Positions 23,130 to 34,846 of a DNA stretch of 64,000 bases are shown here, piece after piece. Source of the stretch: Streptomyces mobaraensis (GTDB taxonomy: Bacteria > Actinomycetota > Actinomycetes > Streptomycetales > Streptomycetaceae); the NCBI RefSeq assembly GCF_020099395.1, contig NZ_CP083590.1, forward strand, positions 5,642,001-5,706,000. The letters are read 5' to 3'. Each line of letters begins with the position of its first letter. Position 1 is the stretch's first letter. The position numbers and the translations under genes were made by a program. The notes below the pieces were generated by a model. The model was not told where the DNA came from and ran no database searches. It saw only the letters and a program-made list of their open reading frames with translations.

Positions 23130-24050
23130 ATGGCAGACCCTGCCGCCCGCCCCCGAGGTGAGTTCTTGAGGAACACCGCCCTCCGTCCGCACGCGACGCT
23201 GCCCGGCCCGTACGACGCCGGGACCGTCCTGGCCACCACCGTCGATGCCCGGGGCAACGCCCTGTGGCTGCTCTGCCCGGACGCGGAAACCGTACGGAAC
23301 CCGTACGGGCCGTCGTACCCGAAGCCCCGCCGGTACCCCTACGACGCCCTGCTCGTCAGCAGCGACGGCACGCCCCCGGTCGACCGCACCCTGACCGGGG
23401 TGCGGGTGCGGCCGTCCGCCCTGGACGTCCTGCCCGACGGCCGGGTCCTCCTGGTCGGGGGCGGCGCCGGTGAGTCGAACGCCCAACTCCTCGGGCGTGA
23501 CGGCCGGCCCCCGCACCGCTTCTCCATCGGCCGCGGAGCCCGCTTCGTACGGGCCGACCGCCAAGGCACCCTGTGGAGCGCCTACTCCGACGAGGGGGTC
23601 TACGGTGACCCGCTCGCCGCCGCCGGCCTCGTCCGCTGGGACGGCCACGGCAACCGGCAGTGGTCCCTCACGCCCCCGGACGGCCTCCCGCACCCGGTCG
23701 ACGCGCACGCCCTCAACGTCGACGACGACGGTGGCGCCTGGTTCGCCTACCACCCGTCGCCCCGTCTCCTTCACGTCCGAGCCGACGGCCGGGTCGCGTC
23801 CTGGACCACACCGGTCGCCCGCCCCCGGGGCATCGCGGCCCACGGCGCGGAGGTCGCCCTCCTCGCCGACGGCCTGCTGCACCGCTGCCGGGCCTCCGCC
23901 GGCACCCTCGACCCGCTCGAGGAAACCCGGCTCACCCTCCCCGACGGCACACCCCTCACGCGGTACACCGACGTCGTCGGACGCGGGCGGCGGCTCTACG
24001 TGCGCGGGAAGTCCGTGCGGCAGTGGTACGTCCTGGACATCGACATGTGA
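23130..24050 (+). CDS. Uncharacterised beta-propeller-like protein
   Basis: This is a 306-aa soluble protein without a signal peptide. It is rich in short repeats of the type 'DGRVLLVGGGAG', 'GTLWSAYSDEGVYGD', 'GGAWFAYHPSP' and 'GRRLYVRGKSVRQWY', which suggest beta-propeller blades. I do not recognise a family or active site. ATG 23130 is used; a TTG at 23166 behind GAGGTGAG is an alternative. It starts 25 nt after the oxidase gene, so it is probably co-transcribed. Confidence 0.7.
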   Translation: MADPAARPRGEFLRNTALRPHATLPGPYDAGTVLATTVDARGNALWLLCPDAETVRNPYGPSYPKPRRYPYDALLVSSDGTPPVDRTLTGVRVRPSALDVLPDGRVLLVGGGAGESNAQLLGRDGRPPHRFSIGRGARFVRADRQGTLWSAYSDEGVYGDPLAAAGLVRWDGHGNRQWSLTPPDGLPHPVDAHALNVDDDGGAWFAYHPSPRLLHVRADGRVASWTTPVARPRGIAAHGAEVALLADGLLHRCRASAGTLDPLEETRLTLPDGTPLTRYTDVVGRGRRLYVRGKSVRQWYVLDIDM

Positions 24051-24101
24051 GCGCCGGGGCCGGCCCGGGCGTGGCGTCTCCGCTCCTCAACTCATGGTGG
24101 A

Positions 24102-24758
24102 TCAGCCCTTGATGGAGAAGAAGAGGGTGTCCTGCGTGTACCAGTCGAGCCGCTCGCGGGCCCATATCCAGTTGTCGTGTTCGTCGTCCAGCATCTCGAT
24201 CAGAATCGTGACGTCGTGGGTGAGACCGGGGTCGATCCGGTCCAGGACCCGGCGGTAGGCGTCGGCGGCGGGCTTGGCCTTGGCCAGCGGGAGCCGGCCG
24301 AAGTCCGGGGATCCGTCCGTGGGGTAGGGGAGGGGGAAGGGGATTCCGTCGGGCGGTCCGGCGAAGAGGTATCCGTAGGGCAGCAGGTCGGCGTCCACGC
24401 CCAGGCGGCGGAGCTCGTCGTCCAGCAGGCCGAAGAAGGTGGAGGGCTTGGAGTACGAGCCCAGGTCGGCGGGGTCGGAGGCGTTGGCGTCGATGATGTG
24501 CTGGAGCGCGCTGTAGTAGGCGTTGGCCGCGTACTCGGCCGTCGAGTCGGCGTGGCCGGCTATGAGGTGGTCGAGGGCATCGGGGATGGTCAGGCCCCAG
24601 TCGATGTCCTGTTGTTCGAGCCGGAGTTGGTCGGCCTCCGCGCATGCGCGCATGTCGGCGAGGACGTCGCGCTGGTCGGCGGAGAGGCTGTCCCCGGCGC
24701 CGAGGAAGGCCACGACGTGCGCTTGGTCCGCGGTGCTGTACGAGATGATCCGGCTCAT
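24102..24758 (-). CDS. Uncharacterised cytoplasmic protein
   Basis: This 218-aa acidic protein begins MSRIISYSTADQAHVVAFLG. A helical middle (RDVLADMRACAEADQLRLEQ) and a C-terminal part rich in Asp and aromatics (DDEHDNWIWARERLDWYTQD) follow. No signal, membrane segment or catalytic motif is evident. Several homologues of this general look exist in Streptomyces, but I cannot name the family safely. ATG 24758 has AGGA about 8 nt upstream; an in-frame start 30 nt earlier is possible. It is convergent with the upstream gene. Confidence 0.65.
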   Translation of the reverse strand: MSRIISYSTADQAHVVAFLGAGDSLSADQRDVLADMRACAEADQLRLEQQDIDWGLTIPDALDHLIAGHADSTAEYAANAYYSALQHIIDANASDPADLGSYSKPSTFFGLLDDELRRLGVDADLLPYGYLFAGPPDGIPFPLPYPTDGSPDFGRLPLAKAKPAADAYRRVLDRIDPGLTHDVTILIEMLDDEHDNWIWARERLDWYTQDTLFFSIKG

Positions 24759-24892
24759 GGTCGTCATCCTGTCACCCACCACTGACATCGCGGGCGTCAG
24801 GCGGGGGCGGGTGGCCGCTGAGCAGTTGGCTGACCGTGGGGTTATCGTTCTCGCCGTCCGGACGGGGGAGCGACAACGGGGGGCAGAGAGGC

Positions 24893-25438
24893 ATGAGCGA
24901 GCGCCTGGGGCCGATCGAGCGGGTCGGCGGCCGGTGGGTCGTCGGGGACACGGAGTGGGAGAAACGGCCCCACCTGGAGTTCGGGGCGGAGGGGGTGCTG
25001 CGGCACGAGCCGGGGAAGGGCGGGCCCGAGCTGGTCCCGTGGGGCAGGTTCATGAGCCTGCACCTGGCGGCCACGCGCACCCGGCTGGAGTCCTCGACGA
25101 CGCTGGCCGTGCTGTCCGGTGGGGAATTCCTGGGCCGGCGCACCTGCTCCCTGCAGGGGACGCTGCGGCATCCCTACGAGCCGTGGACCGCCCGCTTCGG
25201 ACACCACGAGCGGCGCTACGGCACCAGCGAACTCGTCCTCGCGCAGTTCCTCGTCTCGCTGGCCTTCGAGGCGGGGCCGGCCCGGCGGCTCGGTGACCCG
25301 CGGTGGATGGCGGAGGCCGTCGGACGGCTGGCGCCGCTGCGGGTGCGCAGACTGCGCGAGGCGCGGGCGACGGTGGCGGAGGTCGTCCGGGACCTCGACG
25401 AGGCCGTGGTGAGAGGCGCGGACCGAGCCGCGGAGTGA
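24893..25438 (+). CDS. Uncharacterised protein
   Basis: This 181-aa soluble protein begins MSERLGPIERVGGRWVVGDT. The N-terminal half is beta-rich (a PH-like or bacterial PH fold is possible), with VPWGRFMSLHLAATRTR. The C-terminal half is helical and basic (RWMAEAVGRLAPLRVRRL). No catalytic motif is visible. ATG 24893 follows GAGAGG closely. It is divergent from the preceding gene and convergent with the jelly-roll gene. Confidence 0.65.
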   Translation: MSERLGPIERVGGRWVVGDTEWEKRPHLEFGAEGVLRHEPGKGGPELVPWGRFMSLHLAATRTRLESSTTLAVLSGGEFLGRRTCSLQGTLRHPYEPWTARFGHHERRYGTSELVLAQFLVSLAFEAGPARRLGDPRWMAEAVGRLAPLRVRRLREARATVAEVVRDLDEAVVRGADRAAE

Positions 25439-25478
25439 GGCGGGCGCGGAGTGAGCCGCCTCCCCGGCGGCCATGCCT

Positions 25479-26147
25479 TCACGTCTCCGCCGACCGTGCC
25501 ACCACCTCGCTGAACACCACCCGCGCGTCCTCCGTGTACACCCCCACGCTCCCTTTCAGATAAGGGCGTTCGTGGTCCTCGTACGCGACGAGGCCGCGGC
25601 CGTCGACGCTGATCTCCATGCGGGCGCCGCGCTGGGCGACGCGGACGTCCGAGGTGCGGCCGACGGGGAAGGACTCGCCGCCGGTGGCGAGGAAGCGCTG
25701 GCCGCCGGGGTAGGCGGGGTCGCGTTTGCCGAGCTCCCAGCCGTTGGGCTTGAGGGTGATGTAGTAGAAGTGCTCGGGGTCGGTGTAGGCCCAGACCAGC
25801 CAGGGCACTTCCCACGGGTTCGGCTTGGGGGTGCGGAGTTGGGCGACGGTGCGCATGCGGGCCTCGTAGTCCACGTTCTCGTACGTCGCCGTGGAGACGA
25901 CGAGGCCGGCGTGGGTCTCTTCGGGGCGCCGGGCCGGCTTGGGGGAGAGGGCCAGGCCGTCGTGGCGGCCGACGGTGGTGCCGTGGCCGTCGAAGACCGC
26001 CCGCCACGGGCCGTGGACCGTGCCCTCGGCCCACGGCCGTTCCGGCGCGCCCCCGCCGCCCCACAGGGCGTCCGCCGCGAAACCGAGGCCGACGAGCACG
26101 GCGACGGCGAGGGCGGCGAGGGCGAGCTGCCGGTGAACTCTGCTCAT
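25479..26147 (-). CDS. Secreted jelly-roll-like protein linked to wecB
   Basis: This 222-aa protein has an uncleaved or cleaved signal helix at residues 7-27, then a beta-sandwich-like domain. Motifs include TAAYENVDYEAR-like strands (STATYENVDYEARMRT), DPEHFYYITLKPNGWELGK, ARMEISVDGRGLV and YLKGSVGVYTEDARVVFSEV. The pattern resembles DUF1080/LamG folds that bind or act on sugars, but no catalytic residue is certain. ATG 26147 overlaps the wecB stop by 4 nt, so it is translationally coupled to the UDP-ManNAc-forming enzyme. An extracellular role in polysaccharide binding is inferred. Confidence 0.75.
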   Translation of the reverse strand: MSRVHRQLALAALAVAVLVGLGFAADALWGGGGAPERPWAEGTVHGPWRAVFDGHGTTVGRHDGLALSPKPARRPEETHAGLVVSTATYENVDYEARMRTVAQLRTPKPNPWEVPWLVWAYTDPEHFYYITLKPNGWELGKRDPAYPGGQRFLATGGESFPVGRTSDVRVAQRGARMEISVDGRGLVAYEDHERPYLKGSVGVYTEDARVVFSEVVARSAET

Positions 26148-27400
26148 GCCGTCGAGTATGACCCCGGACCCTCGGGAAGGCGGGCGATCACCGGATCGGT
26201 GGACTGATCGGTGGACGGGAGGCCCGTGTCGGTGGACGGCACGCCCGCGTCCGTGGACGGAACGTCCGCGTCCGCGCCGAAGTCCTCCGCGAGCTGGGCG
26301 ATGATGCGTTCGGTCGCGTGGCCGTCGCCGAACGGATTTCCGGCTTCCGCCATGCGGGCGTACTCGGCGGGGTCGTCCAGGAGCCGTTCCGTCGCCGCCA
26401 GGATCGCGTCGGGCACGGTGCCGACGAGCCGGGCCGCGCCCGCGTCGACGGCCTCCGGGCGTTCGGTCGTGGTGCGCAGGACGAGGGCCGGCTTGCCGAG
26501 GGAGGGGGCCTCCTCCTGGACGCCGCCGGAGTCGGTGAGGACGAGGTCGCAGGCGGCCAGGGTGGCCGAGAAGTCGAGGTAGCCGAGGGGCTCGACGACG
26601 CGGACGCGCGGGTGGCCGGACAGCTCGGGCAGCAGCGCGTCGCGCACGGCCGGGCTCTTGTGCAGCGGGAGCAGGATCTCGACGTCGCCGCGGGCGGCCA
26701 GACGGCGTATCGCCCGGCCCATGCCGCGCATGGTGTCGCCCTGGTTCTCGCGGCGGTGGAGGGTGAGGAGGACGCGGCGCAGGCCGGTGGCGGGGTCGGC
26801 GGTGAACTGGCTCTGACCGGTGCCTCGTTCGAGTACCCAGAGGAGGTTGTCGATGACCGTGTTGCCGGTGGTGAAGACCTCCGAGGCGGGCACCCCTTCG
26901 GCCGTGAGGTGGTGGGCGGCGCGCGGCGTCGGGGCGAAGTGCCAGCGGGCCACCCGGCCGATGAGCCGCCGGTTGAGCTCCTCGGGGAACGGGTTGTCGA
27001 GGACGCCGGTGCGCAGCCCCGCCTCGACGTGGGCGACCGGCACGTGCTCGTAGAAGGCGGCGAGCGCGCCGGTGAGGGCGGTGGTGGTGTCGCCCTGGAC
27101 GAGGACGACGTCCGGGCGCAGGCCGCGGACCACCTCGCCGAGGCCGTCCACGAGCCGGGCGGTGAGGGTGGACAGCTCCTGCCGGTCGCGCATGACGTCG
27201 AGTTCCGTGCGGTCGGGCACTTGGAGCAGGTCCAGCATCTGGTGGAGCATCTCGCGGTGCTGCCCGGTGGTCACGACGAGGGGTTCGAACAGCGGTGAGG
27301 CCGCCATGGCGCGGGCCACGGGGGCGAGTTTGATGGCCTCCGGGCGGGTGCCGAGGATGAGCATGGCGCGCACCGGGGCGCTGATCATGTTCGGGGACAC
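26144..27400 (-). CDS. wecB: UDP-N-acetylglucosamine 2-epimerase (non-hydrolysing)
   Basis: The enzyme interconverts UDP-GlcNAc and UDP-ManNAc in the cytoplasm. The 418-aa product has the family motifs GTRPEAIKLAPV, VQGDTTTALTGALAAFYE, HVEAGLRTG, NPFPEELNRR, LTLHRREN, DSGGVQEEAPSLGKP and VLRTTTERPEA. The last ~30 residues are an unusual PSTDxG repeat tail. GTG 27400 has GGGAG 5 nt upstream. It is coupled to the secreted gene downstream and follows the GT2 synthase after 351 bp, so it probably supplies that synthase. Confidence 0.93.
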   Translation of the reverse strand: MSPNMISAPVRAMLILGTRPEAIKLAPVARAMAASPLFEPLVVTTGQHREMLHQMLDLLQVPDRTELDVMRDRQELSTLTARLVDGLGEVVRGLRPDVVLVQGDTTTALTGALAAFYEHVPVAHVEAGLRTGVLDNPFPEELNRRLIGRVARWHFAPTPRAAHHLTAEGVPASEVFTTGNTVIDNLLWVLERGTGQSQFTADPATGLRRVLLTLHRRENQGDTMRGMGRAIRRLAARGDVEILLPLHKSPAVRDALLPELSGHPRVRVVEPLGYLDFSATLAACDLVLTDSGGVQEEAPSLGKPALVLRTTTERPEAVDAGAARLVGTVPDAILAATERLLDDPAEYARMAEAGNPFGDGHATERIIAQLAEDFGADADVPSTDAGVPSTDTGLPSTDQSTDPVIARLPEGPGSYSTA

Positions 27401-27751
27401 GGGTCTCCCTTGGTGTGGGTGGTGCTGGTGGGCGGGGTGGACGAGCCGGCCGCACGGGTCGGGTGGGTGGGGTGGGTACGGCGTGGGGTGCCCGGCGTAC
27501 GCTCCGGGCGGGCGTGGTGGGTGTACGCGCCGGGCGGGCGTGGGGCGCGGGCGTGGCGAACGGATGTGTCGGGTCGGCGTTTTGGGCGGGCAGGCGAGGT
27601 GGGGTGGGGCGAGCGGCGTGGGGTCTGGCAGGCGTGCACGCCCCGCGCCCGCGCCTTCACGCCTGCGCCTTCAGCCCGCGTCGTCAGGCGCGGCATCGTC
27701 GTCAGGAGTGCGTCGGCCTCGCCGCACGCCGCCCTCGGACGCGCGCCGCGC
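27401..27751. other. Gene-free GC-rich gap between the GT2 gene and wecB
   Basis: The 351 bp are G-rich on the plus strand, with a partial direct repeat CCGGGCGGGCGTGG at about 27507 and 27531. Frames here have no family features. It may carry a wecB promoter on the minus strand, but I see no clear boxes. Confidence 0.5.
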
Positions 27752-29134
27752 TCACGTGCGCGCCGTCTTGAGCCAGGTGCGCTTGCCCGTGATCATCCGC
27801 CACAGGCCCCACCACCCGGCGGCGAACCAGATGTAGCCGTAGAAGATGAAGACGTGGGAGAGCAGGACCGCCCGGACGAAGCCGAGGCCCTGCTCCCGCC
27901 GCGAGTACACCCAGCCGTACACGTAGGCCGCGGTGAAGGAGAGGACGTACGGGCCGAGCACCCACATGGGGGAGATCAGCGGCCGTCCGGCCTCGATCGA
28001 GCCGACGGCCGTGCCGGCGACGGCGACCAGGAAGGACACCGGAAGCAGCGAGGTCAGCAGGATCAGCACCGGGCTGGAAAGGTGGTAGAGCAGGTCCACG
28101 GCGGCCCGGGTGGGCACCTCCTTGACGATCAGCGGGACGAGCCCGGCCGACTGGAGGTGGCCCTGGAACCAGCGCGACCGCTGCCGCACCAGCCGCCGGA
28201 CGTCGAGGACGGCCTGCTGGGAGACGGCGGCGGAGGTGCAGTGCTGGTTGGTCCAGCCGCGGGCGATCAGCCGGACGCCGAGGTCCAGGTCCTCGGTCAG
28301 CGAGTCGCTCCACGGGCCGGAACCGTCCGGGCCCAGCAGGGTGTCCAGCGCGGCCAGCCGCATGAACTGCCCGTTCCCGCCCATCCCGACGCTGCCGATG
28401 TAGCGGCGGGCGCTCTGGAAGATGTCGCCGTAGATGACGAACTCCATGTCCTGGAGCCGGGCGAGCAGGCCCTTGTGCCGGTTGTACATCCGCACACCGA
28501 TCTGGGTGCCGCCGGTGCGCGGGTTGTCGAAGTACGGGTCGACCGCCTGGACCACGTGCGGGTCGAGCCGGCCGTCGGCGTCCACGACGCAGACGATGAC
28601 GTCACGGGGGTCGCGGCCGTCCAGCAGGCCCGACGAACGCAGGTGCGCGATACCGGCGTTGAGGGCCGCGCCCTTGCCCTTGCGGGCGTTCGGCAGGTGT
28701 CTCTGGAGCAGGTGCACGGTGCCCGGGTGGGCGGCGCAGGCCGCACGGGCGATGTCGGCCGTGCGGTCGTCGGAGGCGTCGTCGATGACCAGGGCCAGGG
28801 TGTTGCGGGCCGGCAGCGCGGTGATCCGCGCCAGGCTCTCGGCCAGCACCTTCTCCTCGTTCAGGCACGCGAGGAGGAAGACGTAGCAGCGCTGTTCCCG
28901 GGGCCCGCGCGCACGGCGGAAGCGCCGCCGGGAGATGAGGAACAGGGAGGTGTTGTAGACGCCGGCCATCACGATGATGGCGATGCTCGACCAGAGCAGC
29001 AGCTCGTCGAGCGGGAGGCCGCCGATGAGGGCGCCGTCGGTCGTGGACGCGTCGGTGGTGAGCGTGCCGGGCGCGAGTGCGCCGGTGGTGGGCGCGCCGT
29101 TGGTGAGCGCGGCGGTGGCGAGTGCGTCGGTCAT
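27752..29134 (-). CDS. Processive family 2 glycosyltransferase (polysaccharide synthase)
   Basis: This 460-aa membrane enzyme is predicted to polymerise a sugar nucleotide and extrude the chain. Order: a low-complexity N-terminus, a membrane helix at 45-66, the GT-A domain with IDDASDD (118-124), DADG (185-188), GGNGQF (252-257) and TED (280-282), and the processivity motif QRSRW (318-322). Three or more C-terminal helices follow. These are the hyaluronan/PNAG/cellulose synthase hallmarks. No PilZ domain is present. ATG 29134 overlaps the stop of the 66-aa gene. Substrate is unknown; nearby wecB suggests UDP-ManNAc or UDP-GlcNAc. Confidence 0.88.
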   Translation of the reverse strand: MTDALATAALTNGAPTTGALAPGTLTTDASTTDGALIGGLPLDELLLWSSIAIIVMAGVYNTSLFLISRRRFRRARGPREQRCYVFLLACLNEEKVLAESLARITALPARNTLALVIDDASDDRTADIARAACAAHPGTVHLLQRHLPNARKGKGAALNAGIAHLRSSGLLDGRDPRDVIVCVVDADGRLDPHVVQAVDPYFDNPRTGGTQIGVRMYNRHKGLLARLQDMEFVIYGDIFQSARRYIGSVGMGGNGQFMRLAALDTLLGPDGSGPWSDSLTEDLDLGVRLIARGWTNQHCTSAAVSQQAVLDVRRLVRQRSRWFQGHLQSAGLVPLIVKEVPTRAAVDLLYHLSSPVLILLTSLLPVSFLVAVAGTAVGSIEAGRPLISPMWVLGPYVLSFTAAYVYGWVYSRREQGLGFVRAVLLSHVFIFYGYIWFAAGWWGLWRMITGKRTWLKTART

Positions 29135-29331
29135 GAGCGGCCACCGACATTCTTTATCGCGTACCAGAATTTCAGCGAAAGCAGGACGGCGGCTATCGAA
29201 CAGTAGAGCAGGAAGCCGGCCCCCGCCGCCTCCTGGAGCCCTTTCGCGTAGGGCAGGCCCGGCAGCACTTTCGGTGCCGCAGTCAGACCGGCCAAGGGCA
29301 CAACGGTGCCCAGTGCAGGTTTTCCGTACAT
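29131..29331 (-). CDS. Small membrane protein coupled to the GT2 synthase
   Basis: This 66-aa protein begins MYGKPALGTVVPLAGL and has two hydrophobic stretches. The C-terminal one (about 38-58, GAGFLLYCSIAAVLLSLKFW) is a clear membrane helix. GGGGGGAA is placed 5 nt before ATG 29331, and the TGA overlaps the GT2 ATG. I do not know a family. By position it could be an accessory subunit like PgaD in PNAG synthesis, but no sequence similarity is claimed. Confidence 0.7.
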   Translation of the reverse strand: MYGKPALGTVVPLAGLTAAPKVLPGLPYAKGLQEAAGAGFLLYCSIAAVLLSLKFWYAIKNVGGRS

Positions 29332-29704
29332 GGGTTCCCCCCCATTTTCCGCCTCCTGCGAGGCGTGCGCTGGGAACGTACCAGACCTTCGGTCGTACCG
29401 GTCCTACATCAGGGAAGTCATGGAATTCAAGGGCGTAAATTCTTGTGACTGATCGGTAGTTCTGGCAGTTCACGCCGGGGGTGGTGCTGGTGTGACCTGC
29501 GGTCTGAACCATTCACCCGGCGGGAATCGACGGAGGGGGGAGTCGGCCGGGATCGGAAGAGAGCGGTCCGCCTTTCCGGAATTGTAACGAGGGTGTCACT
29601 GATATTCGGAAGCGTATTGACGCTCCGTCGGACGCCCCACCAGAATCTGCCAACTGTCGGCGCGATGCCGGCCATGCCTCGACGGCAGTCAGGGGGGAAT
29701 GAGG
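29332..29704. promoter_or_regulatory. Divergent promoter region of the polysaccharide module
   Basis: The 373-bp gap separates the minus-strand synthase unit from the plus-strand deacetylase unit. TTGACG (29617-29622) and CAGAAT (29641-29646), spaced 18 bp, are a plausible plus-strand promoter. The region is AT-richer than its surroundings around 29420-29460. No gene is seen. Confidence 0.5.
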
Positions 29705-31726
29705 ATGAGAATTTCCCGCAGAGGCCCGGGAAAGACCAGAATTTCGCTAACGCTTTCGATGGTCGCGGCCCTCGTGGGCGGATTCGCGATATCCGAGGGT
29801 TCCGGAGCCGCCGGTGCGCCGGCGGACGCCCGGTCCCGCGCGTCCCACGCCCTGCAGGGCGCCGGGCCGGCCGCGCTCTCCGGGGTCGGCGTCAAGGACC
29901 TCAAGTCCTGGGAGTCCGCCCGGCTCTCCAACGACCGGCTGCGCCGGTCGGGCAAGCTCGTCGTCCGGCGGGCGGCGGCGAGCGGGAAGACGGCGGGCGG
30001 TACCAGCGGCACCGGTAGTACGGGCGGCACCAGCGGCACCAGCGGCATCAGCGGTACCGGTAGTACGGGCGGGACCGGCGGGACGAGCGCCCGGCCGGCC
30101 GTCGCACCCCGCAGCACCACCGCGGCCACGACGGCCGTCCCCGCCGTCGCCCCGGCCACCGCCGGGACCCAGGGTCCGGCCGTCGTCCAGCCGGCCGCCG
30201 CGGCCGGGACCTCGGCGCTGGTCCTCTACGACAACACCGGCCCCTACGGTTACCTGGGCGAGCTCTACGCCATGGCAGCCGCCAACCTCGCCGGCCACTT
30301 CGGCACCGTGACCGCCAAGCCCGTCTCGGCGTACACCGCGGGCATGGTCAACCAGTACACGGCCACGGTGTACATGGGCTCGACGTACTACGGCGGGACC
30401 GTCCCGGACGCCGTCCCCGCCGCGTTCTACCAGGACGCGCTGGCCACCACCCACCCGGTCACCTGGGTCGGGGACAACATCTGGGGCATGGCCAACGCCG
30501 TCGGCGTCGACGCCTTCAAGCAGCACTACGGCTGGGACCCCACCAACTCGTTCTACGAGAGCGGCGGCACGGTCGGGAACATCACCCAGGTCACGTACAA
30601 GGGGCAGCAGCTCACCCGGAAGATCCCCGCCGGATACGACGGCGGAGTGCTGCACCCGGCGCTGCTGACCGGGCCGGGCTACCCCCAGGTCACCCAGCTG
30701 GCCCAGGCCACCGACACCAACTCCGGTGACACCAGCCCCTGGGCGATCCGTTCGGGCAACCTCACCTACGTCGGCGAGATCCCGTTCACCTACGTCTCCG
30801 AGAGCGACCGGGTGATCGTCTTCGAGGACCTGCTCTTCGACGGGCTGGCCCCCGCCACCGCCGAACGGCACCGGGCGTTCGTCCGGCTGGAGGACATCAG
30901 TCCGAAGTCCGACCCCAACGAGCTGCGCCAGATGGCGGATTACCTCTCCGGCCAGAAGATCCCCTACGGGATCAACGTCATCCCCGTCTACACGGACCCC
31001 AAGGGCGTCTACAACGGCGGGAAGGCCGAGACCGTCACGCTCGCCCAGAGCCCCCAGGTCGTCTCCGCGCTCAAGTACATGCTGGCGCACGGCGCGGTGC
31101 TGATGGACCACGGCTACACCCACCAGTACAGCAACGTGAACAACCCGTACAGCGGAGTCACCGGCGACGACTTCGAGTTCTTCCGCGCGCACGTCGACGC
31201 GTCCGACAACGTGATCTACGACGGGCCGCCCGCCGAGGACTCAACTCTCTGGGCGCAAACGCGAGTTACGTCCGCCCTCGCGGGCTTCGCGGCGGCCGGG
31301 CTGCCGAAGCCGACGCTGTGGACAACGCCACACTACGCGGCCTCCGCGACCGACTACCGTGTCGTCGGTCAGAACTTCTCCGCGCGTCTGGAGAGAACCT
31401 TGTACTTCGCAGGAACCCTGCCCGGCACCACCGTGAACGCCGGCCGGTACATCGGCCAGTTCTTCCCGTACGCCGTGAAGGACGTCTACGGCACCACGGT
31501 CCTGCCGGAGAACCTCGGCAACTACGAGCCCGAGCCGTACAACAACCACCCGGCCCGGCTCCCCGCCGACCTGGTCGCCTCCGCCAAGGCCAACCTGGCC
31601 GTCCGCGACGGCGTGGCCAGCTTCTTCTACCACCCGTACTACGGGACGGCCCCGCTCCAGCAGACGGTGGACGGCATCCGCGCCCTCGGGTACACCTTCG
31701 TCGGCCCCACGGACCTGAACCAGTGA
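29705..31726 (+). CDS. Exported DUF2334 polysaccharide-deacetylase-like protein
   Basis: This 673-aa exported protein has a signal peptide at 1-35 and an 80-residue disordered region with GTSGTGSTGGT repeats. An N-terminal Rossmann-like half starts at SALVLYDNTGPYGYLGELY. The DUF2334 domain carries RLEDISP (Asp397), DHGYTHQ (His469, His473), TPHYAAS (His543) and FFYHPYYG, the metal-site pattern of NodB-like deacetylases. ATG 29705 is preferred over 29699 because GGGGGG lies 7 nt upstream. Its stop overlaps the GH113-like start. I infer N-deacetylation or modification of the nascent polymer outside the cell. Confidence 0.85.
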   Translation: MRISRRGPGKTRISLTLSMVAALVGGFAISEGSGAAGAPADARSRASHALQGAGPAALSGVGVKDLKSWESARLSNDRLRRSGKLVVRRAAASGKTAGGTSGTGSTGGTSGTSGISGTGSTGGTGGTSARPAVAPRSTTAATTAVPAVAPATAGTQGPAVVQPAAAAGTSALVLYDNTGPYGYLGELYAMAAANLAGHFGTVTAKPVSAYTAGMVNQYTATVYMGSTYYGGTVPDAVPAAFYQDALATTHPVTWVGDNIWGMANAVGVDAFKQHYGWDPTNSFYESGGTVGNITQVTYKGQQLTRKIPAGYDGGVLHPALLTGPGYPQVTQLAQATDTNSGDTSPWAIRSGNLTYVGEIPFTYVSESDRVIVFEDLLFDGLAPATAERHRAFVRLEDISPKSDPNELRQMADYLSGQKIPYGINVIPVYTDPKGVYNGGKAETVTLAQSPQVVSALKYMLAHGAVLMDHGYTHQYSNVNNPYSGVTGDDFEFFRAHVDASDNVIYDGPPAEDSTLWAQTRVTSALAGFAAAGLPKPTLWTTPHYAASATDYRVVGQNFSARLERTLYFAGTLPGTTVNAGRYIGQFFPYAVKDVYGTTVLPENLGNYEPEPYNNHPARLPADLVASAKANLAVRDGVASFFYHPYYGTAPLQQTVDGIRALGYTFVGPTDLNQ

Positions 31727-32805
31727 GCGCGAAGAAGAGGGCGGTCGCCGCGCTGGCGGCCGCGGCCGCCCTCTTCCTCGCGGGCTGCTCCTCCGACGAC
31801 TCCTCGGACGCGCCCGCGACCCCGCCCGCCGGCACCGCGAGCGGCGGGGCGAGCAAGCGCCCCGACAGCCGGAAGGAGGTCCCGCTGAAAGGGATCACGC
31901 TCCCCGCCTGGAACCGCAAGGACTACGAGAAGCCCGAGGCCAAAACGTATCTGCGGCAGATCGCCGCCACCGGCGCCCGCTGGGTGACCTTCACCCCCAC
32001 CTGGTACCAGGACAAGCTCACCGACTCCGGTATGCGCCCCACCGACGAGACCGCCGACGACGACAGCCTGCGCCACATCGTCCGCCTCGCCCACGACGCC
32101 GGCCTCAAGACCATGATCAAGCCGCATGTGGACCTGAAGGGCGGCGAGGACCGCTCCGGCATCCGGCCCGCCGACCCCGACGCCTGGTTCACGGCGTACG
32201 AACGCTTCATCACCCACTACGCGGACCTCGCCCGCGAGACCGGCGCCGAGCAGTTCTCCGTCGGCACCGAACTCACCGGCGTCTCGCGGGACGGCGACCA
32301 CTGGAAGAAGACCGTCGCCGCCGTCCGCGCCCACTACAAGGGCCCGCTCACCTACGCGGCCAACTACGACGAGTACCGCGACGTCGCGTTCTGGAAGAGC
32401 CTCGACCTCATCGGCATCGACGCCTACTGGCCGCTCGGCGACAAACCCACCGCCGACGTGGGGCGGCTGCGCGAGGCGTGGCAGCCGGTGGTGAAGGAAC
32501 TGGCCGCGTTCTCCGCCGCCCAGGGGCGCAGGATCCTCTTCACCGAGGCCGGCTACGTCAGCCAGAAGGGCAGCACCACCGCCCCGTACTCCTGGACCGT
32601 CAGCAAGTCCGCCGGCGACGCCGAACAGGCCGCCGGATACGAGGCGTTGCTGGCCGCCTTCGAGGGGCAGAAGTGGTGGGCCGGGGTGTGCTGGTGGATG
32701 TGGGACGACTGGCCGGACACGGGGGAGACGCCGAAGAAGCTCGCGTACACGCCGCACGGGAAGCCGGCGGAGAAGGTGCTGCGGAAGTGGTGGGGGAATG
32801 GGTGA
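31723..32805 (+). CDS. GH113-like glycoside hydrolase lipoprotein
   Basis: This 360-aa lipoprotein has the lipobox LAGC (Cys22) and a Ser/Ala/Pro linker. The TIM barrel starts at KGITLPAWNRKDY. SVGTELTG (Glu183) and LFTEAGYVS (Glu275) fit the acid/base and nucleophile pair of GH113, a family of beta-mannanases and related enzymes. GTG 31723 overlaps the DUF2334 stop (GTGA). A hydrolase coupled to a deacetylase mirrors PgaB and PelA, where both activities shape the exported polymer. Its actual substrate is unknown. Confidence 0.85.
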   Translation: MSAKKRAVAALAAAAALFLAGCSSDDSSDAPATPPAGTASGGASKRPDSRKEVPLKGITLPAWNRKDYEKPEAKTYLRQIAATGARWVTFTPTWYQDKLTDSGMRPTDETADDDSLRHIVRLAHDAGLKTMIKPHVDLKGGEDRSGIRPADPDAWFTAYERFITHYADLARETGAEQFSVGTELTGVSRDGDHWKKTVAAVRAHYKGPLTYAANYDEYRDVAFWKSLDLIGIDAYWPLGDKPTADVGRLREAWQPVVKELAAFSAAQGRRILFTEAGYVSQKGSTTAPYSWTVSKSAGDAEQAAGYEALLAAFEGQKWWAGVCWWMWDDWPDTGETPKKLAYTPHGKPAEKVLRKWWGNG

Positions 32806-32862
32806 GGGCGCCGGTCGTGGGTGGTGGGAGGCTCACGTCTCGGGTCGTGGGCGGTGGGAGGC

Positions 32863-33759
32863 TCACGTCTCGCAGTCGTGCACGCTCCCGCACAGGCCGC
32901 ACCGGGCCCGCAGTCGCCCCTGGACCGGGACCCGGATGCGCTGGTGGCAGGTGGGGCAGGGGAAGCTGACGCGCTGCGGGTCGCGCCCCTCGAACGCGTA
33001 CCCGGCGGCGGGTGACGCCTGGCCCGTGCCGCGCTCGGCCGCCCGGCGGTCGCGCGCGTAGCGGTGCCGCCCGAGCCGGCCCGCCGCGGCCAGCGGCGGA
33101 CGCCGCGCCTCCTGGCGGGCCCGCGCCGCGCCCGCGACGTAGGCGTCGTGGGCGCGCGGGCTGGTGAACCAGATCCGGGGGTCCTCGGCGAAGACCTCGG
33201 CGCGCTGGGCCAGGACGTAGCCGAACTCCTCCGGGGTGAGGTAGCCGAGCTTCTGCGTGCTGACCGCGTCCTCGCGGTACGCGTCGAGCAGCAGCCAGCC
33301 GGCGCCGAGGTAGGCGGCGACGGTGTCGGTGAGGATCTCGTTGTCCCGGGTGCCGGGGAAGGCGAGGCCGAGCCGGTGGAGGTAGACGTGCGTCACCTCG
33401 TGGGCGAGGGCCGCGCCGATGTCCTTGCGGTGCTTCTTGAAGCGGGAGTTGAGCTCGATGAAGTACTCGGGCCCCGCGGCGAGTTCGACGTTCCCGGCGT
33501 GCCGCATGTCGCGGAAGGAGACGATCATCCGGGCGTCCGGGAGCCGCAGGTGCCGCACCATGACGCCGGCGATCCGCTGGACGCCGAGGTAGGGGTCCTC
33601 GTCGTCGGAGAACGCGACGTCGGACGGCGGGACGCTGAGCGCGAAGGTGCGCAGGGTGTCGGGCGAGATCCGCCGGTAGAGGGCGGTGATCGCGGAGTGC
33701 ACCGTGTCCAGGTGCGGGAACCCGTGGAGGATCTCGACGTCCGTGCCCACCAGCACCAC
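32863..33759 (-). CDS. Putative zinc metallopeptidase-like protein with C-terminal zinc ribbon
   Basis: This 298-aa cytoplasmic protein has ALAHEVTHVYLHRLGL in the middle, an HExxH motif, with a downstream NEILTDTVAAYLG that could supply the third ligand. The last 35 residues form a ribbon, CPTCHQ ... CGLCGS. GTG 33759 has GGAG 8 nt upstream, and the conserved sequence begins VVLVGTDVEILHGFP. Whether it is an active peptidase is not known. It is convergent with the GH113-like gene. Confidence 0.75.
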   Translation of the reverse strand: MVLVGTDVEILHGFPHLDTVHSAITALYRRISPDTLRTFALSVPPSDVAFSDDEDPYLGVQRIAGVMVRHLRLPDARMIVSFRDMRHAGNVELAAGPEYFIELNSRFKKHRKDIGAALAHEVTHVYLHRLGLAFPGTRDNEILTDTVAAYLGAGWLLLDAYREDAVSTQKLGYLTPEEFGYVLAQRAEVFAEDPRIWFTSPRAHDAYVAGAARARQEARRPPLAAAGRLGRHRYARDRRAAERGTGQASPAAGYAFEGRDPQRVSFPCPTCHQRIRVPVQGRLRARCGLCGSVHDCET

Positions 33760-33956
33760 CCCCGCGGCTCCGCCAGCCCCCTGCCCTCCCACCTTACGCG
33801 CACACCGGCGCACACCGGGCCCCACCGGATCCGACTGGCCGGAAGCCTCCTTGCCGCCGCCGGCGCACGCTCCGATACTCGGCACACCGCGTCCACCGGA
33901 TTCCGCTGGGGCAACAAGCATCGGCAGCTTGTCATGGGCATGATTACACAGGATCG

Positions 33957-34846
<890 letters not shown>

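Follow-up and report, generated by a model that had tools for sequence, protein, structure and literature searches.

A six-gene locus of Streptomyces mobaraensis with the make-up of a compact exopolysaccharide system that probably uses UDP-ManNAc

Streptomyces mobaraensis carries a six-gene locus that probably encodes a compact Gram-positive synthase-dependent exopolysaccharide system using uridine diphosphate N-acetylmannosamine (UDP-ManNAc). The locus lies at positions 25479 to 32805 of the window, the 64,000-nucleotide stretch of contig NZ_CP083590.1 (positions 5,642,001 to 5,706,000) analyzed here. It brings together a family 2 glycosyltransferase (GT2), a small membrane protein, the epimerase WecB, an exported DUF2334 protein, a GH113 lipoprotein, and a CBM66-like protein. 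This reading comes from sequence comparison: we examined which genes are present, how they are linked, co-occur, and fuse, which folds are predicted for them, and which catalytic positions are kept. We regard the system as an actinobacterial form of the Pss/Yda kind found in Listeria and Bacillus, undescribed as far as our literature searches reach.

The genes form two divergent groups around a 367-base gap. The left group, on the reverse strand, starts with a 66-aa membrane protein with one likely helix (29131 to 29331), which overlaps the start of the GT2 membrane polysaccharide synthase (27752 to 29134; PF13641, 92 bits, and PF00535). It continues with wecB (26144 to 27400), encoding a non-hydrolysing UDP-N-acetylglucosamine (UDP-GlcNAc) 2-epimerase that forms UDP-ManNAc (TIGR00236, 436 bits against a cut-off of 210), and ends with a 222-aa CBM66-like jelly-roll protein, secreted or membrane-anchored (25479 to 26147); the latter likely binds polymer, and an enzyme role is also possible. 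The right group, on the forward strand, consists of an exported putative polysaccharide N-deacetylase of family DUF2334 (29699 to 31726; PF10096, 189 bits against 26) and a GH113 glycoside hydrolase lipoprotein that likely cuts polymer (31723 to 32805; PF22612, 199.5 bits against 27). With starts as called, each of the three coupled pairs (CBM66-like/wecB, GT2/66-aa protein, and DUF2334/GH113) overlaps by 4 bases.

Linkage was scored around the best 80 of 138 GT2 relatives from a GTDB genome scan, with truncated contigs counted as misses. Near the GT2 gene lie DUF2334 in 80/80 loci, the CBM66-like gene in 77/80, wecB in 76/80, and GH113 in 71/80. The pairs mostly share a strand: GT2 and wecB in 74/76 loci, wecB and the CBM66-like gene in 75/75, and DUF2334 and GH113 in 61/71. 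Relatives of the 66-aa protein are found by tblastn in 62/80 loci, and an open reading frame (ORF) pattern search finds a short ORF starting MY, with a membrane helix, ahead of GT2 in 77/80 (the exceptions are L074, L080, and L086). Hosts include Streptomyces, Kitasatospora, Actinacidiphila, Actinomadura, Actinocorallia, Spirillospora, Planomonospora, Planobispora, and a metagenome-assembled genome of the Solirubrobacterales. In Planomonospora, Planobispora, and relatives (L082:9337-12834, L072, L078, L083, and L084), two tandem DUF2334 genes follow GT2, with no GH113 in the fetched stretch.

Other anchors lead to the same set. In the order sample (147 genomes), PF10096 has any match in 30 genomes, a match over its cut-off in 22, and a window-type match (E < 1e-49) in 7. 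GH113 (PF22612) occurs in 15, with E < 1e-56 in 7, and the window-type GT2, defined by an NF053846 match of 275 to 304 bits within a few kb of a window-type DUF2334 gene, occurs in at least 7. Window-type DUF2334, strong GH113, and window-type GT2 fall in the same 7 genomes, their genes side by side; wecB and the CBM66-like gene accompany them in 7/7 and the small protein in 6/7. The order's remaining DUF2334 genes, for the most part shorter, belong to a different group: in 12 such regions, tblastn finds none of the other five genes. The class sample (296 genomes) has window-type DUF2334, here at E 1e-40, in 12 genomes. At 10 class loci new to the study, GT2 is present in 8, the CBM66-like gene in 8, and wecB in 6; tblastn finds GH113 and the small protein in 0/10. 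The sets overlap, in that 3/10 class loci and 4/7 order loci are identical or almost identical in sequence to members of the 80 GT2-anchored loci; their anchors differ. Because the genes are linked in 71 to 80 of 80 GT2-anchored loci and, with DUF2334 or GH113 as the anchor, in one shared set of 7 among the 147 order genomes, they form a unit beyond chance, and we reject the possibility that they are chance neighbors. The initial annotation, made from the sequence alone, had placed these six genes in one pathway and had named rare co-occurrence in other genomes as the contrary case; ORFs, families, and linkage agree with the former, and the 80 loci, the 7 order genomes, and the class loci speak against the latter.

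Single-strand versions and gene fusions extend this picture (genes were called by a rough script for L140, for the 10 further loci below, and for recurring neighbor families). A divergent version in genome G037 (L094) runs DUF2334-GH113-GT2-wecB-CBM66-like on one strand, with GT2 and DUF2334 at 43-45% identity. Five loci (L140, L142, L143, L144, and L146) have the order GT2-CBM66-like-wecB-DUF2334, also on one strand; in L140, the frames either overlap or are separated by 17 bases. A further 10 loci of the GT2 family comprise 2 from the genome of the locus itself (G000) and 8 from other genomes of the phylum sample (296 genomes); of these, 7 have wecB nearby, 5 DUF2334, 3 the CBM66-like domain, and none GH113. 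In such deeper branches, DUF2334 and GT2 are fused in one ORF in L121 (962 aa) and L125 (1032 aa), in the order deacetylase domain, hydrophobic stretches, GT2; DUF2334 is joined to a PF06439 CBM66-like domain in L126 (800 aa) and L127 (825 aa). Such fusions argue strongly for a single product on which the parts act. L149 has a DUF2334 and a CBM66-like gene, but its 13-kb stretch holds neither GT2 nor wecB; in L141 the contig starts 107 bases before the match.

A tblastn search of plasmids with two DUF2334 proteins returned the same three records for each. The whole cluster is present on the 316-kb linear Streptomyces plasmid NZ_CP108510.1 (L137:4637-11650) and therefore may move between replicons. 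The Comamonadaceae plasmid CP099603.1 (L139:6803-15749) carries wecB, an NfrB-like GT2, a 100-aa protein, DUF2334, a protein with tetratricopeptide repeats and an NfrA_C domain, and DUF4434. Its DUF2334 protein is 34.6% identical to that of the window over 543 columns, alignable over both domains. Its GT2 shows 39.5% identity to E. coli NfrB across 486 columns. It clears NF012033, a glycosyltransferase equivalog of general scope (600 bits against 537), and reaches 507 bits with the NfrB model, under the cut-off of 1170. This set may be a proteobacterial counterpart, with DUF4434 as its candidate hydrolase. On the Burkholderia plasmid NZ_CP091982.1 (L138:9905-11548), a two-domain DUF2334 gene sits between diguanylate cyclase genes; the other parts are not in the fetched stretch.

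The GT2 has the motifs of a processive synthase and is paired with a small membrane protein, in line with the initial annotation. Its motif residues (DD, DAD, TED, and QxxRW) are invariant in 87/87 aligned rows; the TED and QxxRW motifs are marks of processive synthases. The closest curated GT2 family is NF053846, the XrtP-associated glycosyltransferases, where the protein scores 284.8 bits, under the cut-off of 520, and so falls outside that family. On the PgaC/IcaA equivalog TIGR03937, it scores 57.9 bits, under 422.3; this is higher than on the NodC or CelA models. No NfrB model is among its 13 NCBIfam matches. A protein of S. mobaraensis matches the GT2 with 96% identity over 97% of its length. 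GT2 relatives measure 400-445 aa, mostly 412-427 (best 120 of 1685 matches), so the true start may lie downstream of 29134. A GT2 tree with long branches and open forks, given no weight for the donor sugar, puts the L094 GT2 outside the 14-row group that contains the GT2 of the window. The 66-aa membrane protein has no family match in profile scans.

The DUF2334 protein has a predicted Rossmann-like domain followed by a CE4-like barrel with His and Asp in the positions of a metal site, as in a CE4-type fold. PF10096 is its sole match at E up to 0.1. The initial annotation had called the protein divergent; its likely active site, consisting of E-D, HxxxH, and two later His, is nonetheless retained in 86 or 87 of the 87 aligned rows. 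The GH113 protein fits its family by the PF22612 profile and by two Glu: it matches beta-1,4-mannanase structures (E 2.9e-35 to 1.7e-27), and both Glu aligned to AaManA 151 and 231, which we take to be the catalytic residues, are kept in 78/78 rows. Profile and structure comparison give no match to hydrolases of poly-N-acetylglucosamine (PNAG) or chitin, and none to PF14883. Among 14 control genomes, PF22612 matches none, and PF10096 at E 1e-40 matches B. subtilis only (6 or 7 genomes match at E 1e-3); NF053846 at 1e-40 also matches Lactococcus lactis (1/14). GH113 was considered as a marker of the system and rejected: in six other genomes (L129-L134), it occurs without adjoining wecB, DUF2334, or a close GT2 relative, and the surroundings hold two weak GT2 matches only (66 and 46 bits).

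What points to the donor sugar is the company of the GT2. The genome of the locus has two PF02350 epimerase genes, both adjoining a GT2 of this family. Among GT2 scored in the order sample, those over the XrtP-type cut-off have wecB in the fetched stretch in 11/12 cases; in L159, wecB is divergent and about 1 kb off, and L160 is without it. The same 12 stretches contain no DUF2334, GH113, or CBM66-like gene by tblastn. A third GT2 type has wecB near 0/3 (L120, L161, and L162). Counts of NF053846-type GT2 are lower bounds, with the best 10 candidates per genome scored in the order sample and the best 5 in the phylum sample and the genome of the locus. The second GT2-wecB pair of that genome (L119:9090-11633; G000:C1 ~5029089-5031632) scores 700 bits as an XrtP-associated glycosyltransferase and has valS in its stretch; the exosortase model has no match among the six L119 genes scanned, and no paper on XrtP with an exosortase was found in the literature searched. 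The third GT2 (L120:9366-11006; G000:C1 ~3079865-3081505; NF053846, 281 bits) is without wecB or DUF2334 by tblastn, as are L161 and L162. The initial annotation had read the epimerase as a sign of ManNAc, and had named as the contrary case that wecB is unrelated; its presence in 76/80 loci, in 11/12 XrtP-type stretches, and beside GT2 for both epimerase genes of the genome favors the former.

Known polymers point the same way. The product of Listeria pssA-E is poly-beta-1,4-ManNAc with alpha-1,6-galactose (PMC5039582, PMC5422440), and the deacetylase PssB is required for cell-bound polymer (PMC6307706, PMC4817252). A ManNAc polymer is likewise the proposed product of E. coli NfrAB with WecB (PMC8669472). 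The recurrence of wecB by this GT2 family, the DUF2334, wecB, and NfrAB-like genes on CP099603, the structure of Listeria Pss polymer, and the membership of GH113 in a beta-1,4-mannanase family together argue for ManNAc as the building block. In the pathway that we propose, WecB would convert UDP-GlcNAc to UDP-ManNAc; GT2 and the small membrane protein would polymerize it at the cytoplasmic side and pass the chain, presumably beta-linked and most likely beta-1,4, through the membrane. Outside the cell, DUF2334 would take off part of the N-acetyl groups, leaving a cationic chain that sticks to the cell; the GH113 lipoprotein may cut or trim the chain, and the CBM66-like protein may hold it at the surface.

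Systems related to this locus exist: Listeria pssA-E, B. subtilis ydaJKLMN, and E. coli NfrAB with WecB. The initial annotation knew of no actinobacterial system so composed; the view that nothing related has been described is not supported. The nearest known kind is Pss/Yda, which likewise has a GT2 synthase and a deacetylase (PssB; YdaL), a likeness judged by family name and published description. The window deacetylase falls in the YdaL/DUF2334 family by its PF10096 score, and 6 of its relatives (best 120 of 1942 matches) bear the name YdaL from NCBI or JGI. The B. subtilis PF10096 match is presumably YdaL, and Listeria PssB is, we assume, a DUF2334 protein. Relative to Pss/Yda, the window adds an in-cluster wecB, the small membrane protein, and the CBM66-like protein. 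B. subtilis has ydaJKLMN (PMC5422440, PMC13274460). The hydrolases differ, GH113 in the window and GH126 for Listeria PssZ (PMC7479077). E. coli NfrA-NfrB-WecB, the N4 glycan receptor, shares with the window a WecB that supplies UDP-ManNAc to a GT2, and DUF2334 accompanies an NfrAB-like set on CP099603; however, NfrB belongs to a different GT2 branch (31 bits) and is by annotation activated by cyclic di-GMP, the outer-membrane NfrA is without counterpart in the window cluster, and no deacetylase is annotated alongside E. coli nfrAB.

The logic of PgaABCD/IcaADBC and of Streptomyces MatAB is also alike: GT2, small membrane partner (in the window the 66-aa protein, a candidate without family match), extracellular deacetylase, and hydrolase. 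MatB is a bifunctional synthase and deacetylase (PMC5972031), comparable to the DUF2334-GT2 fusions L121 and L125. PgaB, however, matches PF01522 (82 bits) and PF14883 (GHL13, 482 bits), whereas the window deacetylase is PF10096 and the window hydrolase is GH113; as the GT2 also fails the PgaC model, we reject membership in Pga. The initial annotation had portrayed the locus as Pga built from other families. The different families of deacetylase and hydrolase hold, and so does the Pga-like logic, but logic is all that is shared: in its parts, the locus most resembles Listeria Pss and Bacillus Yda. By the tests made it is not a proven member of either, and it is better seen as an actinobacterial variant of that type. 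No description of the locus was found among the papers listed by the literature searches (the best 20 of 62 and of 184 in two of them), which largely exclude subscription papers. The accessible part of a 2026 study on Actinoplanes, covering four exopolysaccharide clusters (PMC13390465), does not mention DUF2334, an epimerase, GH113, or wecB, and the accessible main text of a survey of synthase-dependent operons (PMC7112194) does not mention DUF2334, wecB, mannosamine, Streptomyces, or Listeria.

Several observations weigh against a ManNAc polymer system of this make-up. wecB and GH113 are not universal partners: wecB is absent from 4/80 GT2-anchored, 3/10 phylum, and 4/10 class loci, GH113 from 9/80, 10/10, and 10/10, respectively, and 8/147 order genomes have GH113 without the six-gene set. 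Two His positions are lost in the DUF2334 relative of L086. A BcsB-like subunit (PssD/YdaN) and a degenerate GGDEF receptor (PssE/YdaK) were both sought in the six genes and four flanking ones, the rest of the genome not being searched, and neither was found. In direct comparison, the GT2 is 29% identical to PgaC over 244 columns (71 bits) and reaches 31 bits over 104 columns with E. coli NfrB; against the PgaC model, the GT2 of L094 reaches 81 bits. Since GT2 is thus more PgaC-like than NfrB-like, donor specificity is not derivable from the GT2 itself. This likeness, together with the ranking of the PgaC model above those of NodC and CelA and the production of PNAG by MatAB in Streptomyces (PMC5972031), would suit a GT2 that makes a GlcNAc polymer of the PNAG or chitin type, while wecB would serve some other product, for instance a linkage unit, and be co-located through shared regulation only. 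We consider this unlikely: the PgaC score is far under its cut-off, wecB turns up repeatedly next to the GT2 family (in loci of the window type, of the XrtP type, and of the deep branches), and the hydrolase has matches among solved mannanases but none among hydrolases of PNAG or chitin.

A polymer with a ManNAc backbone and other sugars, such as galactose branches added by enzymes encoded elsewhere, is quite improbable in our judgment. It has a precedent in the alpha-1,6-galactose of Listeria Pss (PMC5039582, PMC5422440) and in lectin data that point to galactose or N-acetylgalactosamine in the Yda polymer of B. subtilis (PMC13274460), but beyond the six genes just two glutamate synthase subunits recur in more than 25/80 loci, where rarer neighbors are incompletely annotated and genes elsewhere were not sought. 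UDP-ManNAc is also used for teichoic linkage units, and some GT2 relatives (best 120 of 1685 matches) are named 1,2-diacylglycerol 3-beta-glucosyltransferase. The GT2 might accordingly place one or a few sugars on a lipid carrier or teichoic linkage unit, in a glycolipid or wall-glycopolymer pathway where DUF2334 and GH113 edit the product. The invariant TED and QxxRW motifs, the domain order in L121 and L125, where a single protein carries GT2 behind a deacetylase domain and hydrophobic segments, and the lack of a lipid-carrier gene among the families recurring in more than 25/80 loci make this very unlikely.

If the ManNAc system is real, DUF2334 gains a function, and so does a GH113 branch that has no known substrate. 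A further surface polymer would join the PNAG of MatAB and the CslA glucan known from Streptomyces (PMC5972031), and wecB, GT2, and DUF2334 would become a single gene signature of ManNAc polymers, valid for Gram-positive as well as Gram-negative bacteria. The polymer itself would be chitosan-like, built on mannosamine, and would come with enzymes for synthesis, deacetylation, and cleavage. A wider proposal is tentative, a little short of an even chance: DUF2334 may be a dedicated N-deacetylase of ManNAc polymers across bacteria with three synthase settings (Pss/Yda, NfrAB-WecB, and actinobacterial GT2). In the actinobacterial setting, the product would then be a beta-1,4-mannosamine chain that has lost part of its N-acetyl groups, which makes it the C2 epimer of chitosan; the GH113 proteins of these loci would be poly-ManNAc/mannosamine hydrolases, a new specificity. 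A soluble GH113 of Streptomyces davawensis showed no activity on mannans (PMC9032380); this would be explained if it were of the proposed type.

The divergent intergenic region (29332 to 29698) may hold shared control elements. Its block at 29640-29660, CCAGAATCTGCCAACTGTCGG, is largely conserved across 24 aligned sequences (the window and 23 loci, L009-L031) and is a possible shared promoter or regulator site. A TTGACA-like element lies near the block. A search for a riboswitch found none: positions 24000-34000 give no match to Rfam at E 0.5. A functional link to the flanking genes was rejected, as each accompanies the cluster in some of the 80 loci only: SprT in 26, trypsin in 23, the response regulator in 28, the histidine kinase in 23, and DUF7691 (24102-24788 in the window, 203 bits) in just 1. 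Amine-oxidase matches occur in 51/80 loci, most of them 43 residues long.

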